44,168 nucleotides of DNA from Pseudomonadota bacterium (GTDB lineage: Bacteria > Pseudomonadota > Gammaproteobacteria > Burkholderiales > Rhodocyclaceae), in assembly GCA_018241725.1 (NCBI GenBank), contig JAFEDI010000034.1, positions 1 to 44,168 of the forward strand, given 5' to 3'. A program made the translations under genes and the position numbers. Positions 5,571 to 13,027 of the stretch are shown here, one piece after another (position 1 is the first letter of the stretch; each line of letters begins with the position of its first letter). The notes beneath the pieces were generated by a model. It made no database searches. It saw only the letters and a program-made list of their open reading frames with translations, and had not been told where the DNA came from.

Positions 5571-6675
5571 ATGGAAGCAGAACGTCTCAACGCCATCTCC
5601 AACAAGCTCGCCGACCTGAAGGCCCGGGAGCTCGAACTTCGGAGGTATCTTTGACTACGACTCCAAGGCTGAGAAGCTGATCGAGGTCAGCAAGCAACTC
5701 GAAGATCCGGACATCTGGAACGACGCCAAGCACGCCCAGGAACTCGGCAAGGAAAAGAAGACTCTCGAAGGCGTCGTTCTGACGCTGCAGGAAATCGAGC
5801 AAGGCATCGCCGACGGCAAAGACCTGTTCGAGCTCGCCTCGATGGAAGAGGACGAGGACACCATGCAGGCCGTCGAGGCCGACGTCGCCAGCGTCGAAGC
5901 CCGTGTCAGCGAACTCGAATTCCGCCGCATGTTCAGCAACCCGATGGACGGCAACGCCTGCTTCATCGAAATCCAGGCTGGCGCCGGCGGCACCGAGGCC
6001 CAGGACTGGGCAGGCATGCTCGAGCGCATGTACCTGCGCTACGCCGAACGCAAGGGCTTCCAGGTCGAACTGCTGGAAGAATCCGAAGGCGAAGTAGCCG
6101 GCATCAAGAGCTGCACGATCAAGGTCGGCGGCGAATACGCCTACGGCTTCCTGCGCACGGAAACCGGCATCCACCGCCTGGTCCGCAAGAGCCCCTTCGA
6201 CTCCAACGCGCGCCGCCACACCAGCTTTACGTCGGTGTTCGTCTTCCCCGAGGTGGACGACTCCATCGAGATCGACATCAACCCGGCCGATGTGCGCACG
6301 GACACCTACCGCGCTTCCGGCGCCGGCGGTCAGCACATCAACAAGACCGACTCCGCTGTCCGTCTGACCCACATCCCGACGGGCATCGTCGTGCAGTGCC
6401 AGAACGACCGTTCCCAGCACCGCAACAAGGACGAAGCCTGGTCGATGCTGCGCGCACGTCTCTACGAAGCCGAACTGCGCAAGCGTCAGAGTGAGCAGCA
6501 GAAGCTCGAGGACGCCAAGAGCGACATCGGCTGGGGCCACCAGATCCGCTCCTACGTGCTCGATCAGAGCCGCATCAAGGATCTGCGCACCAACTATGAA
6601 GTCGGCAACACCCAGGCAGTGCTCGACGGCGACCTGGACGGCTTCATCCAGGCCAGCCTGAAGCAAGGCGTGTAA
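5571..6675 (+). CDS. prfB: Peptide chain release factor 2 (RF2), programmed +1 frameshift
   Basis: The coding sequence is join(5571..5651, 5653..6675), 367 residues. The first 27 codons end at an in-frame TGA (5652-5654) in the conserved context CGG AGG TAT CTT TGA C; the GGAGG acts as an internal Shine-Dalgarno and CTT is the slippery codon, so translation continues at GAC 5653. This is the classical RF2 autoregulatory frameshift: low RF2 favours slippage. The downstream protein has the stop-recognition tripeptide SPF ([12 protein letters not shown]) and the peptidyl-hydrolysis motif [11 protein letters not shown]2 terminates at UGA and UAA. Length matches the family. A GC-rich terminator follows the stop. 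Confidence 0.97.
5640..5655 (+). promoter_or_regulatory. RF2 programmed +1 frameshift site
   Basis: CGGAGGTATCTTTGAC contains an SD-like GGAGG three bases before the slippery CTT and an in-frame TGA followed by C, the weak termination context found at RF2 frameshift sites. It decides how much full-length prfB product is made. Confidence 0.95.
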
Positions 6676-6739: not shown

Positions 6740-7990
6740 ATGCTGCGAATCCTTGTCTGGCTGAGCGGCACCATCGTGCTGCTGGCGGTGGCTGCTGTCG
6801 TTCTTGCATTCCAGGTGGTGGAAGACAAGCCGCTGGTCACCACCGGCAGCGCCCCCGCACCCGCAGCACTGATGCGTGCCAAAGCGATCCTCCGCAAGAA
6901 CGATCCACGCCGACTGACCCGCGACGAGCGGCGCGAGATCAACATTGCCGCGCCGGACCTGGAAGCGCTGGTCGCCCTCGCCGCCCGCCGCGGCCTCCAG
7001 GCCGACACCCGCGTCGAGTTGCACCAGGGGGGCGCCAAGATCAGCTACTCCGCCCAATTGCCACGCAACCCGCTCGGCCGTTACCTCAACGTCAGCACCC
7101 AGCTCGGCGCCGGCACCGACGGTCTCAAGTTCGAACAGGTGCGCGTCGGCCGCGTGCCCGTGCCCCCGGCCCTGTTCCAGGCTGCGCTCGAGCACTACCT
7201 CAAACGCACCCAGTACGCATCCAATCTCAGCTTGCTGGCGCGCAGCATCGACCGGGTCTCCGTCACACCGGATGGCGTTCGCGTCGCCTACACCTGGCAG
7301 CCCGAACTGCTCGACTCAGCCCGCTCGCTGGCCATCGATCCTGCCCGACGCGACGGCCTGGCCGACGCCCAGCGGCGCTTGGTAGCACGCATCGACAGCC
7401 TCGGCACGCGGCCGAGCGCGCCGCTGGCCGCGGTGCTCGGCCCACTGCTGCAGGAAGCCGGCGAACGCACCCGCTCCGGCGAGCGCAGCAGTGCTTACCG
7501 GGACATCCTGCTGGTCACCGCCGCCCAGTTGTCCGGCCACGACATCGCCCTGCTGATTCCCGAGGCCCGCCAGTGGCCGCGCCCCCGCCCGGTGACGCTG
7601 ACGCTACGCGGCCGTGAGGACCTCGCCCAGCATTTCACCGTCTCCGCCGCGCTCGCCGCGTGGGCTGGCGAACCGCTGGCCAACGCCATCGGGCTCGACA
7701 AGGAAGTCAGCGACTCCCGCGGCGGCAGCGGCTTCTCCTTCGTCGACCTGGCCGCCGACCGGGCCGGCACGCGCCTCGGCGAACTCGCTGCTCGCGACCC
7801 CGAGCGTCTCGCCGCGGCGGTCTCCGCCGGCCTGCGCGATGCGTCCCTGCTGCCACCGATCGACGGCCTGCCCGAATCCATGATGGCGGACGAGTTCCAG
7901 CGCCGCTTCGGCGGCGTCGATGCGCCGGCCTACAAACGGATGGCCGACGAAGTCGAACGCCGCGTCGCCGCCCTAGCCCTGTTCCACTAA
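6740..7990 (+). CDS. Membrane-anchored protein of unknown function, first gene of the SMC block
   Basis: The 416-residue protein has one N-terminal membrane segment (about residues 3-25, LVWLSGTIVLLAVAAVVLAF) and a large remainder that should be periplasmic, alpha/beta and without cysteines or a motif I know. No enzyme signature is visible. Its stop is seven bases before the start of the kleisin-like gene, and the three following genes overlap in turn, so it is very likely transcribed with the SMC complex. A membrane partner for that complex is an inference from position only. The 31-base gap after the prfB terminator leaves little room for its own promoter. Confidence 0.75.
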   Translation: MLRILVWLSGTIVLLAVAAVVLAFQVVEDKPLVTTGSAPAPAALMRAKAILRKNDPRRLTRDERREINIAAPDLEALVALAARRGLQADTRVELHQGGAKISYSAQLPRNPLGRYLNVSTQLGAGTDGLKFEQVRVGRVPVPPALFQAALEHYLKRTQYASNLSLLARSIDRVSVTPDGVRVAYTWQPELLDSARSLAIDPARRDGLADAQRRLVARIDSLGTRPSAPLAAVLGPLLQEAGERTRSGERSSAYRDILLVTAAQLSGHDIALLIPEARQWPRPRPVTLTLRGREDLAQHFTVSAALAAWAGEPLANAIGLDKEVSDSRGGSGFSFVDLAADRAGTRLGELAARDPERLAAAVSAGLRDASLLPPIDGLPESMMADEFQRRFGGVDAPAYKRMADEVERRVAALALFH

Positions 7991-7997
7991 GCCCCGC

Positions 7998-9353
7998 ATG
8001 AACGAAGTCCGCCTGGAAGAACTGCTGGCCCCCGGCGTCGCCGCCGACGACGTCCCCGAACTTGCCCCGCTGATCCAAGCCCGCCCACTGCTGTCCGCCT
8101 TCAGCACGCTGTTCCACGGTAGCGAGGCCGAAGTGCTGATGCGCCTGCTGGTGCTGCGCGAGATCGGCAAGGAGACCGACGCCCCGCGCTGGGAGCCGGA
8201 ACAACTCCGCCAGCGCTTCTCCTTCCTCGACCACGTCAAGCTCGAAACGGTATTGCGCCGCCTGCGCGGCAACGGCCTCCTGGAGATCGGCGACGACAGC
8301 CTGTACGCGCTGTCCGACCTCGGCCGCAACGCCGTGGCGGCAATCGGCATGATGGTCAGCTTCAGTGCCGAAGACGATCTGGAGCTGGGCTTCCTCACTG
8401 CCCAGCTGGCCGGTCTGCAGGCCGTCGGCAGCGTCACGCCGGAAGCCCTCGGCCACCTGCTCGGCAAGCTCAACGACCTGGCCTGGCATTTCGAGGAGGC
8501 CATCGCATCCGGCTCCGAGTTCCGCATCGCCGATGCCCGCCGCCGCCTGTCCGCCAACACCCGCTGGATCGAGAAGGGCACCGAAGTCCTGCACGAACTG
8601 CTGGCCGACCCCGAGGTGTCCTTCGATCTGGCCCGCATCGCCCAGCGCATCGGCCTCGCCCAGTCGCGCCTGGCCCGCGTGGATGCGGCCTTCCAGCGGG
8701 CGGTGAACAAGATCGAGGCCCAGCGCGTGACCCTCGGCGGCTCCGGCATCTCGTCCAGCGACGTTGCCGCCTGGCTGCGCAGCCTGGACGCCCGCAAACT
8801 GGCCGGCCTGGCCGGCGGCTGCCTCGCCCCGGCACCCGAACTGACCTTGCTGGCTGGCGGCCACGAACTGCTCGACCGCGCCGAGCTGGCGCTGTCGGAA
8901 GAGGCCCGCCAGATGGAAGCCGACATCGCACTACCGACGGCCGAAGAGGCACCGAGCCGCAACCAGCCGGAACAGGAAGACCTGCGCCTGCTGCAGCACT
9001 TCAGCCAGCGCCTGGCGCGTCTCGCCGAACCCGGCCAGGCGCCGGCCAGCCTGGCCAAGGTGGTCACTGGCGGCGGTTTCCCGGCCGCCTCCTACCGCTT
9101 GTCCCTGCTGGCCCTGCTCGCCGACGGCGGCGGCGAAGGCGGCGCAACGCCGGCCGACGGCCCGATAGGCGAGTTCATGCGCCTGCCCCTCGAAGTGCGC
9201 TTCGATGCCACTACCGTAAAGGTTGGCGAAGACGAGATCGCCGCCATGTCCGCCGGCCTAGTCGGCGCCCACGGCAGCCTGCCGGCCCCCGAAGTGGTGC
9301 CTGTCCTAGACGCCGCCACCAAATCCTCCGCATCCCTTTCCGACCCAGCCTGA
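7998..9353 (+). CDS. Kleisin / MksF (JetA)-like condensin subunit
   Basis: This 451-residue protein shows an N-terminal winged-helix region (about residues 45-120; RRLRGNGLLEIGDDSLYALS is a typical recognition-helix/wing segment), a long helical middle, and an acidic, low-complexity C-terminal end. No membrane segment or enzyme motif is present. Its place as first of three overlapping genes, before a small double-winged-helix protein and an SMC ATPase, is the MukF/MksF/JetA position. By family knowledge a kleisin bridges the two SMC heads and binds KITE proteins. Similarity is at the level of architecture and order rather than clear sequence identity. Its TGA overlaps the next ATG (TGATG at 9351-9355). 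Confidence 0.65.
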   Translation: MNEVRLEELLAPGVAADDVPELAPLIQARPLLSAFSTLFHGSEAEVLMRLLVLREIGKETDAPRWEPEQLRQRFSFLDHVKLETVLRRLRGNGLLEIGDDSLYALSDLGRNAVAAIGMMVSFSAEDDLELGFLTAQLAGLQAVGSVTPEALGHLLGKLNDLAWHFEEAIASGSEFRIADARRRLSANTRWIEKGTEVLHELLADPEVSFDLARIAQRIGLAQSRLARVDAAFQRAVNKIEAQRVTLGGSGISSSDVAAWLRSLDARKLAGLAGGCLAPAPELTLLAGGHELLDRAELALSEEARQMEADIALPTAEEAPSRNQPEQEDLRLLQHFSQRLARLAEPGQAPASLAKVVTGGGFPAASYRLSLLALLADGGGEGGATPADGPIGEFMRLPLEVRFDATTVKVGEDEIAAMSAGLVGAHGSLPAPEVVPVLDAATKSSASLSDPA

Positions 9354-10063
9354 TGGAACAACAGATCCGGACCCTCACCGCGCGCCTGCTGGCCAGCCGC
9401 AGCCTCCCGCGTACCGACCCGCTGGTGCGCCGTGCGCTGGTGGACGAGACCTTCCGCGTGGAGCTCGACGCCCGTCTCGCCGCCGTTGGCCTGCAGCTCA
9501 TCGACAACCCCTACGCCGAGCACGTCGCCACCGCCCTCACCGAGGACATGCACGAGCCGGTGTTCGGCGCCACCCGCGAGTACGCCGCCAGCAACATCGG
9601 CCTGACCCGCGACCAGCTGGCGCTGCTGGTGGTCATCTGGGCGCTGATCATCCTGCCCAAGCGCGAACGCCAGGTGAATCGCCAGAAGCTCGGCGACGAC
9701 GGCCAGGGCGACATGTTCAGCAAGGATGCCCCGGTGGAGCGTGGCGACGCCGTCTCCAGCCCCATCGTCGAAGCCTCCCTACTGGCCGACTTCGCCAACA
9801 CCCTGGGCCACAAGACCTACGTGCAGGGCAAGCTGCTGTCCCGCCTGGCCCAGCTCGGCTTTATCGAACGCAAGGCCGGCATGATCCACGAAGGCCCGCT
9901 GCTCGACGTACTGCTCGACTACCGCACCCTCGCCGACCGCATCGTGCACGGCACCCTCGGCGAAGTGCTGGCCCAGGCCGGTCACCCGCTGCCCAGCCTC
10001 GAGGCCTTTGCCGACGATGACGTCGCCCATGTCGAAGAAGCCGACGCGGAGGACGACTACTAA
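9353..10063 (+). CDS. KITE / MksE (JetB)-like condensin subunit
   Basis: The 236-residue acidic protein contains two segments that look like winged helices (about 70-110 and 150-185, e.g. LLSRLAQLGFIERKAG) and ends in a strongly acidic tail. KITE proteins (MukE, MksE, ScpB, JetB) are tandem winged-helix dimers that bind the kleisin; size, order and features fit. It overlaps both neighbours by one base (TGATG at the start, TAATG at the end), which implies translational coupling and fixed stoichiometry. I cannot exclude a more distant winged-helix adaptor. Confidence 0.65.
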   Translation: MEQQIRTLTARLLASRSLPRTDPLVRRALVDETFRVELDARLAAVGLQLIDNPYAEHVATALTEDMHEPVFGATREYAASNIGLTRDQLALLVVIWALIILPKRERQVNRQKLGDDGQGDMFSKDAPVERGDAVSSPIVEASLLADFANTLGHKTYVQGKLLSRLAQLGFIERKAGMIHEGPLLDVLLDYRTLADRIVHGTLGEVLAQAGHPLPSLEAFADDDVAHVEEADAEDDY

Positions 10064-12864
10064 TGTTCCACATCAAGCAACTCGAACTGGTCCACTGGGA
10101 CTACTGGCGCCGATTCAGCCTGCCGCTGGACGCCCAGATCATCACCATCGTCGGCCCCAACGGCTCCGGCAAGACCACCCTCCTCGACGCCCTGCGCACC
10201 CTGTTCGGCCTGCGCTGCTCCGGCAAGCGCGACTTCCGCCGCTATGTGCGCCGCGCCAACCGCAGCTTCGCATGGATCCGCGCGGTGGTCGCCAACAAGC
10301 CCGGCAGCACCGGCAAGCGACCATTCTTCCCATGCCTGAAGGACGAGGTCACCCTGGCCTGCCGTATCCGCCGCGCCGGCGGCGACTGGACCCGCGACTA
10401 CGCCATCGCCGACGGCGACGTGCCCATCGAGGCGCTGGAAGCCAACGAGAACAAGGCCATCGAATGGGTCGGCTACCGGGACTACCAGAGCCGCCTGGCC
10501 TGGGGCGGCCTGACGCCGGCCATCGCCAAGGTGCTGGCGCTGGAGCAGGGCGACACCGACAAGCTTTGCGAATACTCGCCGAAGGCGCTGCTCGAACTGG
10601 TCTTCGACGTGTTCGGCGACAAGGAGGTGCTCGACAACTACGCCGCCGCCCGCGAAGAGCAGAGCAACGCCGAGAAGGAGCTCGAAGCCCTCGGCCTCGA
10701 CCTCGACCGCCTGCGCGCCCAGGCAGAAGCCAAGCGCCTGGAAGCCGACCGCTTCCTTGAATGGAAGCAGCTCAACGACGAAGCCGGCGCCCTCTCCACT
10801 GAGATCGTGCCACGCCTGGAAGCCGCCGAGCTGATGCGCGACATCGAGCAGGCCCGCGCCGACATCGCCCGCGGCCGCCTCGACTTCCAGAAAGGCGACG
10901 AGGAGCTGGCCGGCCACAAGGCCCGCACCGCCGAGGTGGAAGCCGAGAAGGCCGCCGCCGAAACGGAACGCAAGGCCGCCCGCAGCCGCGAGCTGGAAGC
11001 CGAGAAAGCCCACCTCACCGCCCACGATGAAGTCCGCGACTTCGACAAGCTGCTCGCCGAGCGCTCGGCCCTGCGCGCCCGCCTGGCCCGCGAAGCCGGC
11101 GACGGCGCGGTGGACCTGGAGGCCGCCTACGCCAAGGCCGATGCCCGCCTGCTCACGTTGCAGCGCCAGGAGCGGGCCGCCATCGCCGCCTTCGAGGAAA
11201 AGACCACCCAGCTGCGTGCCACCCGCGAGCATCGCGGCCCGCCGCCCGACGGCGAGGTCAGCCGCTTCCGCAAGCGCCTCGGCGACGCCGGCATCGCCCA
11301 CCGGGCCCTGTCCGAAATCATCGAGGTCACCGACCCGGACTGGCAGGGTGCCGTCGAAGCCGTACTGCGCCCTTACCGCAACGTGATCCTGCTCGAACGG
11401 GAACAGGACCGCCACGCCGCCTGGGCGCTGGGCGAGCAGGAACGCTTCCGCCACTTCATCGTGCCGGAGCTGGAGCCCGCGCCGCCGGCCGTCGACGGCT
11501 CCCTAGCCGAAGTCATCCGCTTCGCCGACGACGTGCCGCGCTGGCTGGCCGACCTGCTCAACCGCATCCAGCGCGTCGAGGACGCCGACTCCGCCCGCCA
11601 CCTGCCCAAGGAGACCGAGTGGATCACCCGCGACGGCTACCACCGGGAACGCCGCGGTGCCCGCCACCTTGGCAAACCGACCGAATTCCATTTCGGTGAG
11701 CTGGCCCGCAGCGCCCGCCTCAAACAGCTCGACGCCGACATGCACAGCATCGACGCCCGCCTGCGCGAGCTGCGCCCCGAACTGGATGCCGCCAAGGAAG
11801 AAGCCGACGCCCTGCGCGCCCGCCTGCACGGCATCGAAGCCGCCCAGCTGCTGGCCGCCCGCGCAGAAGCATTTGAGCGGGCCGAAGCTGCACTGCCCGG
11901 TGCCAGGGCACGCCTCACCGCAGCCATCGCCGCCCGCGCCGAAGCCAAGGGCGACGTGGACAAGATCGACCAGCGCCTGCGCGGCATCGACATCGAACTC
12001 GACCGCCGCAAGCGCGAGATCTCCTCCCTGGCCCGCAAGGCCCAGGAGCTCGCCGAGACCGCAGCTCCCCGCCGCCGCGAACAGGCACGCCGCATCCAGC
12101 GCCTGCGCCAGCTGCGCCGTGGGATGCCGGCCGACTGGCGCGAGCCGCAACAAACCGCACTGCTGGTGGACAAGTACGGCGATGCCCGCGGCGCACGCGC
12201 CGACCTCGAACGCCTGCGCCAGCGCCTCAACGACGGCGACTGGATCACCGACGACACGGTGTTGACCCTGGCCGGCCGCCTGAAGACCGATCTGCAGCAG
12301 CGCGAACGGGACTACGCCGAGCGGGAAGCCTATTTCGCGACGACCCGCCGCCTCACCTCCGACGCCCGCGCCGCCTACATCGCCAAGCTGCGCATTACGG
12401 TCCGCCAGTACGGCAAGAACCTGCGCGCCCTCGGCGACCTTGCCAACGTGGACGTGGACTGCCCGGTACCGATGCTCGAGAACGACGACCGGGCACTGGC
12501 CTCCGCCGGCCTCGAGGTGCGTTTCGACTTCGACCGCAAGGGCGCCGTCGGCCTCAACGACGGCGAGGCCTCCGGCGGCCAGCAGGTCATGAAGTCACTG
12601 ATCCTGTTGATCGCCCTGTTGATGGACGAAGCCCGCCCCGGCGGCTTCGTGTTCATCGACGAGCCGTTTGCGCACCTGGACATCGCCAACATCGACCGCG
12701 TCGGCACCTTCCTGCGCGCCACCCGCGCCCAGTACCTGATCACCACACCGGTCACCCACAACGCCAACGTTTTTGCGCCGGCCCAGCTCACGCTGGTCAC
12801 CCGCAAGAAGAAGCCTGGCGACGACTGGGCGCCGCCGATCGGCTTGATCCAACGAAACGTCTGA
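10063..12864 (+). CDS. SMC-family ATPase (MksB/JetC-like)
   Basis: A 933-residue SMC protein: Walker A GPNGSGKT at residues 31-38, a Q-loop-containing head half, a long coiled coil (about 190-380), a compact hinge-like domain (about 395-545, containing DPDWQGAVEAVLRPYRNVIL), a returning coiled coil (about 560-750), and the C-terminal head half with signature ASGGQQ (836-841) and Walker B FVFIDEP (D866, E867) followed by the D-loop HLD. The signature is SGGQQ rather than the usual SGGE. It is shorter than canonical SMC or MukB (about 1,150-1,480 residues). With the two upstream genes it should form an SMC-kleisin-KITE complex that extrudes or compacts DNA. A perfect terminator follows. Confidence 0.85.
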   Translation: MFHIKQLELVHWDYWRRFSLPLDAQIITIVGPNGSGKTTLLDALRTLFGLRCSGKRDFRRYVRRANRSFAWIRAVVANKPGSTGKRPFFPCLKDEVTLACRIRRAGGDWTRDYAIADGDVPIEALEANENKAIEWVGYRDYQSRLAWGGLTPAIAKVLALEQGDTDKLCEYSPKALLELVFDVFGDKEVLDNYAAAREEQSNAEKELEALGLDLDRLRAQAEAKRLEADRFLEWKQLNDEAGALSTEIVPRLEAAELMRDIEQARADIARGRLDFQKGDEELAGHKARTAEVEAEKAAAETERKAARSRELEAEKAHLTAHDEVRDFDKLLAERSALRARLAREAGDGAVDLEAAYAKADARLLTLQRQERAAIAAFEEKTTQLRATREHRGPPPDGEVSRFRKRLGDAGIAHRALSEIIEVTDPDWQGAVEAVLRPYRNVILLEREQDRHAAWALGEQERFRHFIVPELEPAPPAVDGSLAEVIRFADDVPRWLADLLNRIQRVEDADSARHLPKETEWITRDGYHRERRGARHLGKPTEFHFGELARSARLKQLDADMHSIDARLRELRPELDAAKEEADALRARLHGIEAAQLLAARAEAFERAEAALPGARARLTAAIAARAEAKGDVDKIDQRLRGIDIELDRRKREISSLARKAQELAETAAPRRREQARRIQRLRQLRRGMPADWREPQQTALLVDKYGDARGARADLERLRQRLNDGDWITDDTVLTLAGRLKTDLQQRERDYAEREAYFATTRRLTSDARAAYIAKLRITVRQYGKNLRALGDLANVDVDCPVPMLENDDRALASAGLEVRFDFDRKGAVGLNDGEASGGQQVMKSLILLIALLMDEARPGGFVFIDEPFAHLDIANIDRVGTFLRATRAQYLITTPVTHNANVFAPAQLTLVTRKKKPGDDWAPPIGLIQRNV

Positions 12865-12868
12865 GCGG

Positions 12869-12890
12869 GGCGGCGGAACAATCCGCCGCC
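12869..12890 (+). terminator. Terminator after the SMC gene
   Basis: A 9-bp perfect stem GGCGGCGGA (12869-12877) with TCCGCCGCC (12882-12890), loop ACAA, lies five bases after the SMC stop codon. There is no long T-tract. It closes the four-gene block and separates it from the GGDEF gene. Confidence 0.65.
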
Positions 12891-13027
12891 TCATAATGAC
12901 AAAAACATGCTACAAAGGAAAAAAACGTGCGATAAGCACTGCACCACCCGCTCGCTGCCTATTTTGGGCTTCAGAATTCACCGCGACGGACGTTAATCGG
13001 CCCTCAAGACCCAGACCCGACCCATTC

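Follow-up and report, generated by a model that had tools for sequence, protein, structure and literature searches.

The SMC (structural maintenance of chromosomes) complex MksBEF of P. aeruginosa is a condensin that occurs beside Smc-ScpAB (PMC7485682, PMC10586767), and several distant MksBEF families have been described, as have Wadjet types I–III (PMC7485682, PMC10512200, PMC10123090, PMC10586767); these papers are cited throughout from excerpts. One of them, a review, proposes that MksBEF and MukBEF may descend from Wadjet-type defence, MksBEF through loss of the nuclease JetD, and calls the relationships unresolved (PMC10586767). Here a window of 44,168 nucleotides (positions 1 to 44,168 of contig JAFEDI010000034.1, GenBank assembly GCA_018241725.1, Rhodocyclaceae) was analysed for a trio of adjoining genes. 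The source genome is 5.9 Mb and has Zoogloea among its closest named relatives (loci L063–L073). The trio is an SMC-kleisin-KITE operon of the MukBEF/MksBEF/Wadjet superfamily, an assignment that is firm for the SMC and for the operon. No JetD-type nuclease gene follows it, and it is probably an MksBEF-like condensin that was left by loss of JetD and kept for another job, most likely folding or segregation of the chromosome. The main features are as follows.

7998..9353, forward strand: kleisin subunit (MukF/JetA type), 451 residues, from predicted fold and synteny
9353..10063, forward strand: KITE subunit (JetB/MukE type), 236 residues, two winged-helix units
10063..12864, forward strand: SMC ATPase subunit, 933 residues, from PF02463, PADLOC JetC1 and motifs
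12865..12895, forward strand: SMC-to-GGDEF junction, 31 bases, the slot of a jetD-like gene in some Zoogloea

A first-pass annotation of the window, made by a model from the letters and their open reading frames, had described four frames with one-base overlaps and a seven-base spacing, and this layout was recovered: the kleisin/KITE and KITE/SMC frames of the window list overlap by one base each, and seven bases separate the end of a gene for a 416-residue protein from the kleisin gene. Since only 31 bases lie between the SMC stop and the next gene, there is no room for a nuclease gene at that place.

The trio resembles P. aeruginosa MksBEF, as published, in its composition, being an SMC with kleisin and KITE, without a nuclease, beside Smc-ScpAB (PMC7485682, PMC10586767). 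The window family differs from that system in that some of its members within a single genus bear the nuclease. Wadjet JetABCD (MksBEFG) is matched in gene order by the nuclease-bearing relatives, which run kleisin-KITE-SMC-JetD, and the window SMC matches JetC models (PADLOC JetC1, 1.8e-27, strongest over the coiled coils and hinge). However, the window lacks JetD, its kleisin and KITE have no match to JetA or JetB models, and the family SMC is about 200 residues shorter than Wadjet JetC, types II and III having been compared through PADLOC and PDB only. E. coli MukB, at 1486 residues against 933, is larger still, and the Pfam MukB model missed the window SMC (E 0.12). Smc-ScpAB likewise joins an SMC ATPase to kleisin and KITE partners, but the 451-residue kleisin has no match to PF02616 (ScpA), and the same genome holds a separate SMC of canonical size (frame of 1253 residues) and a ScpA.

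Relatives were confirmed in genome contigs for 413 matches, the best 80 of which were analysed; 139 SMC loci, duplicates included, were compared, of which 112 distinct ones hold all three genes, and 125 distinct SMC loci were scored. The 933-residue product matches PF02463 (SMC_N) at 62.2 bits (cut-off 40) and falls just below threshold for SMC_hinge over residues 413–514 (19.9 bits, cut-off 22.5). All 125 distinct SMCs of the family carry the Walker A, ASGGQQ and Walker B patterns, and the first-pass call of an SMC ATPase with Walker A, hinge-like domain and signature is thereby borne out. The same annotation had singled the ATPase out as compact, which it is, but a length of about 920–945 residues is typical of the family and not peculiar to the window. 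Comparison with the type I JetC of the same genome, which scores 1648 bits on PADLOC, shows the window SMC to be a weak match to JetC1. The SMC family profile matches that JetC at E 5.6e-13, hhalign aligns the family with type I JetC at 99.0 % over columns 369–588, and JetC is the best solved-structure SMC match for the family.

The predicted model of the kleisin matches MukF and Wadjet type II JetA, with an N-terminal winged helix and a helical middle present. That of the KITE (pLDDT 66.7) contains two winged-helix units, and its JetB rows are tied with single winged-helix and MarR proteins. Type I JetB, against the KITE, and type II JetA, against the kleisin, align over most of the models. 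Confidence is good that the first product is a kleisin of the MukBEF/MksBEF/Wadjet superfamily and moderate that the second is a KITE. At the level of sequence, DUF4194 (JetB) is weakly matched by five of 30 KITE relatives, and PADLOC JetB1 by two of the 30 (0.0023 or weaker), the window KITE being in neither group. None of 30 kleisins matches PADLOC JetA, and the window kleisin and KITE have no match to PADLOC JetA or JetB models at E 1. Profile comparison by hhalign gave no match of kleisin or KITE to type I JetA or JetB from 10 loci of trio genomes, nor of the kleisin to E. coli MukF or the KITE to E. coli MukE, and searches of both profiles against sequences of solved structures returned nothing informative. 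The case for these two subunits is therefore built on synteny, on the folds predicted for them and on a small number of weak matches to families. Together with gene order, these agree with the earlier proposal of a trio of the MksFEB/JetABC kind, and the sequence divergence, with kleisin and KITE outside known JetA/JetB models and type I JetA/JetB unmatched, fits its suggestion of a distinct branch. Among the titles and abstract openings listed by literature searches, none dealt with a betaproteobacterial MksBEF or Wadjet family that lost JetD recurrently, though the branch may figure among the MksBEF families defined in 2011.

The order kleisin-KITE-SMC on a single strand was observed in 112 of 112 distinct loci that hold all three genes, which excludes chance. 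Both gaps are shorter than 200 bases in 74 of these loci, and 38 have a wider gap.

Of 116 scorable relatives, 25, among them other Zoogloea, have a JetD-type Toprim nuclease gene downstream of the SMC; 91 of the 125 distinct loci lack one and nine have too little downstream sequence. Matches to JetD_C directly behind the SMC in three genomes pointed to a gene of about 390–430 residues that is also present in further relatives. The distance from the SMC end to the start of this JetD-like gene is within 100 bases in 20 of the 25 loci, 0.3–0.9 kb in four and 5.5 kb in L108. Three of the 25 genes are incomplete at contig ends (L069, L135 and L178), and in genomes G526 and G007 the remainder of the gene is on another contig. 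PADLOC JetD1 was the best match for five of five JetD-like proteins (9e-11 to 3e-22), three of the five matching DUF2399 and one JetD_C; against sequences of solved structures, the best row for the JetD profile was a kinesin-like protein at 0.0026, which was taken as chance. Residues E281, N282, D330, P333 and K406-x-EQE (408–410) are invariant in 21 aligned sequences and D332 is nearly so; we take these to be Toprim and C-terminal JetD elements. Four Zoogloea loci (L048, L049, L068 and L069) carry the gene, which in L048 and L049 is placed between the SMC and the GGDEF gene (in L048, SMC end at 11732, jetD-like gene at 11716–12957 and GGDEF gene from 12970).

Profile searches of 71 trio genomes detected a JetD-like gene in 16, always less than 1 kb from the trio SMC, and none away from the trio. 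The genome-wide search found none in the window genome, and its nearest kin are also without one. The first-pass statement that the window operon lacks JetD thus stands, the short junction, the tblastn search described below and the genome-wide profile search all agreeing. Its picture of a nuclease-free system applies to the window operon but not to the family, which is not nuclease-free by nature. Because a JetD-type gene follows the SMC in these relatives, Zoogloea included, the absence in the window is most likely secondary, a conclusion that is well supported, if not proven.

We infer that JetD was ancestral to the family and was then lost, rather than gained. Mapped on an SMC tree of 125 rows, which came from a quick search with long-branch warnings, the JetD presence label requires at least 14 changes, 10 of them forced by starred branches, against a mean of 23 for shuffled labels. 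If vertical loss only and a midpoint root are assumed, the tree would imply 30 losses; the 76-row clade with the window accounts for 23, and Zoogloea for three. A careful 20-row tree rejected a single clade for the JetD-bearing Zoogloea and likewise for the JetD-less ones (approximately unbiased test, p 0.007 and 0.0014, respectively), the groups having been picked after the first tree was viewed.

Several observations weigh against JetD loss followed by retention for another job. Loss and gain are indistinguishable by parsimony, JetD is missing in 91 of the 116 scorable loci, and tblastn over 100 loci without a called JetD, the window included, found no JetD-like stretch or remnant. The JetD of family f192 (L186, L208 and L211) may be a separate acquisition of a different JetD, given its branch length of 2.5 and a PADLOC JetD1 score better than that of the others; the tree positions of the L096 and L090 JetDs differ from those of their SMCs, which points to some transfer of JetD. 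Weak points in the subunit assignments also count here: MarR proteins rank close behind the kleisin structure rows, and the low-confidence model of the KITE scores no better against its own rows than single winged-helix proteins do. Weak matches to PADLOC JukB (best 7.7e-5) occur in seven of 30 kleisins and possibly reflect coiled-coil composition. Values of dN/dS (Nei-Gojobori, as for all such ratios here) reach 0.25 for the KITE in some nuclease-less pairs.

The prevalence of JetD-less loci, the apparently independent derivation of the f192 JetD and the conflicting JetD and SMC placements are also what would be expected if the nuclease-less trio were the ancestral condensin and JetD had been gained several times, making a defence system. 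We regard this reversed order of events as unlikely: all 11 JetDs found in the window's 76-row clade are monophyletic (99/95), the close spacing to the SMC, seen in 20 of the 25 loci, extends to distant families, and JetD was confined to the trio in the genomes searched. Distances between JetDs also track those between SMCs (Spearman 0.67 over 231 pairs, with 0.82 for SMC and KITE).

The SMC appears to have remained under constraint where the nuclease is absent. Its dN/dS is 0.02–0.13 in 13 nuclease-less pairs and 0.035–0.12 in three nuclease-bearing pairs, and that of the kleisin does not exceed 0.17. The disappearance of the nuclease without trace could indicate that a defence system has been lost and that the window trio is what remains of it, itself decaying, but all 91 nuclease-less SMC rows keep their ATPase motifs unbroken, each of the 13 nuclease-less pairs has a low dN/dS and the window frames are intact, so that we consider decay highly improbable. 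Nuclease-less trios sit in chromosomal housekeeping neighbourhoods. In 26 non-Zoogloea loci, all nuclease-less, a gene for an Obg-type GTPase is no more than 3 kb away (identified by PF01018 in L056 and L057); the 3-kb neighbour clustering contained many antisense frames, and neighbours were identified in part.

Other SMC systems coexist with the trio. Of 63 trio genomes, 61 have a ScpA match; the exceptions, G039 and G699, belong to one genus, g18, in which the trio might stand in for Smc-ScpAB. On contig 116, the window genome also has a type I Wadjet with a complete gene set (L222 5156–11894; PADLOC JetA1, JetB1, JetC1 and JetD1) that is 57–70 % identical to the set of G604. A last point against retention for another job would be that the trio still acts in anti-plasmid or anti-phage defence, with the nuclease supplied in trans by this Wadjet JetD or with an unrecognised effector. 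The complete Wadjet and the relatives that retain a cognate JetD-like gene adjoining the trio are compatible with such a role, as are strong canonical JetD_C matches in 12 of 51 trio genomes without a cognate JetD and 0 of 12 with one (Fisher p 0.10). However, JetD_C matches are wholly absent from 43 of the 63 trio genomes, the profile of the cognate JetD-like family did not match the canonical type I JetDs retrieved, and the inserts of 18 loci showed no recurrent effector, with neighbours identified in part. We think this continued defence role rather unlikely. In G448, whose trio has its own JetD, a second, distant SMC (frame of 1151 residues) with a JetD-like gene behind it was observed on contig 28 (L234 5429–10053).

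The remaining features around the trio are as follows.

6740..7990, forward strand: 416-residue protein with a signal anchor and a YfiM-like motif at its C-terminus, judged to be outside the complex
5842..6675, forward strand: flank, prfB (release factor 2), TIGR00020 458 bits
12896..14128, forward strand: flank, GGDEF protein, PF00990 123 bits
14244..15743, forward strand: flank, lysS, NF001756 736 bits

The arrangement prfB, trio, GGDEF gene and lysS was found in nine of nine Zoogloea stretches. The gene for the 416-residue protein is directly upstream of the kleisin gene in Zoogloea and Methyloversatilis-type loci, which would suit a complex of four subunits with this protein as its membrane tether, as the first-pass annotation had supposed. 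As read from the sequence and an alignment of 13, a membrane segment begins almost at residue 1 and about 390 residues are predicted to be outside the cytoplasm. A protein that is nearly all periplasmic is unlikely to tether a cytoplasmic SMC, and it is probably not a subunit of the complex. Occurrence argues in the same direction. The protein was found in 18 of 101 genomes of the window's family, 10 of these 18 having no KITE, and 23 of 31 KITE genomes lack it (the two surveys used the same draw of genomes, going by those listed); its gene thus does not always accompany the trio. In G743 and G759, its gene and the KITE gene are about 29 and 340 kb apart, and within Zoogloea its identity is 57–97 %, lower than that of the SMC (84–98 %). 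A membrane-tethered complex is accordingly very hard to credit. The C-terminal part of the protein matches the YfiM equivalog at E 5.6e-5, with 23 bits against a cut-off of 117.

The distribution of the family was surveyed up to class level. The SMC was found at least partly in 20 of 22 other members of the window's genus, the two misses being genomes 72 % and 80 % complete. With the window genome counted, the KITE was present in 31 of 101 genomes of the family and the SMC in 48 of 300 genomes of the order, while SMC and KITE were each found in two of 370 genomes across the class, a sample with just five genomes of the window's order, the window's included. The order survey and one class survey scored two candidates per genome and the other class survey at most seven, so misses are possible. 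Among the best 80 of the 413 relatives, named ones are nearly all betaproteobacterial, with one metagenome-assembled genome labelled Moraxellaceae. A phage origin was rejected, as no phage record matches at E 1e-15. A plasmid-borne family was likewise rejected: two Variovorax plasmids match at about 40 %, neither covering 80 % of the query in one place. These SMC relatives (NZ_LR594690.1 543090–544502 and NZ_LR594663.1 180832–182163) share about 40 % identity over half of the query.

Some loci depart from the compact operon. Thauera and its kin (L075, L076, L088, L090, L096, L099 and others) have about 0.9–6 kb between KITE and SMC, filled where inspected by unrelated genes on either strand, such that the operon is split with all three genes retained. 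A conserved fourth gene inside the operon was considered and rejected, because the gap genes differ among the 18 loci inspected and none common to several lineages was seen there. Pfam searches of 10 gap genes identified a tRNA U5-methyltransferase, a glutamine amidotransferase, an MFS protein, an Asp/Glu racemase, a PIN protein and a GNAT acetyltransferase, and four had no match. Recurrence was observed inside single lineages, with the methyltransferase in L075, L096 and L099 and a GNAT-like gene in L056 and L187. Three loci of family f5 have a protein of ~220 residues without a Pfam match between kleisin and KITE (L198 6603–7271, L199 6263–6946 and L200 5884–6540, in G675, G497 and G532). 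In Pseudothauera nasutitermitis (L111 8001–10790), the SMC has no kleisin or KITE within 8 kb upstream.

The trio would thus encode an SMC-kleisin-KITE complex that is driven by ATP and presumably extrudes DNA loops. It belongs to a divergent, mainly betaproteobacterial family, and the ancestor of that family most likely had a Toprim nuclease of the JetD/MksG type. The nuclease would have been lost in the window lineage, as in many others, and the motor retained under purifying selection at a stable chromosomal site. Chromosome organisation rather than plasmid cleavage, as already proposed in the first-pass annotation, is judged the more likely role and is our best inference; in the manner of P. 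aeruginosa MksBEF, the nuclease-less complex would most likely serve as an auxiliary condensin alongside Smc-ScpAB and fold or segregate the chromosome. In our scans, PADLOC models detected the SMC (JetC1) and the JetD-like gene but none of the kleisins and just two of 30 KITEs, so that annotation of the nuclease-bearing members as defence systems would be partial at best.

It is possible, though we put it forward tentatively, that a single SMC family has converted repeatedly from plasmid defence to condensin, with both forms in one genus at the same slot, a motor that stays constrained after nuclease loss, a JetD perhaps re-acquired in f192 and a trio perhaps replacing Smc-ScpAB in the genus of G039 and G699. 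The family shows many apparently independent switches between nuclease-bearing and nuclease-less forms, some of them recent, which makes the JetD-loss proposal, as worded in the excerpted review (PMC10586767), testable in sister species. A JetABC-like motor is apparently able to persist under selection without its nuclease, a point of relevance to the action of SMC motors on the host chromosome.

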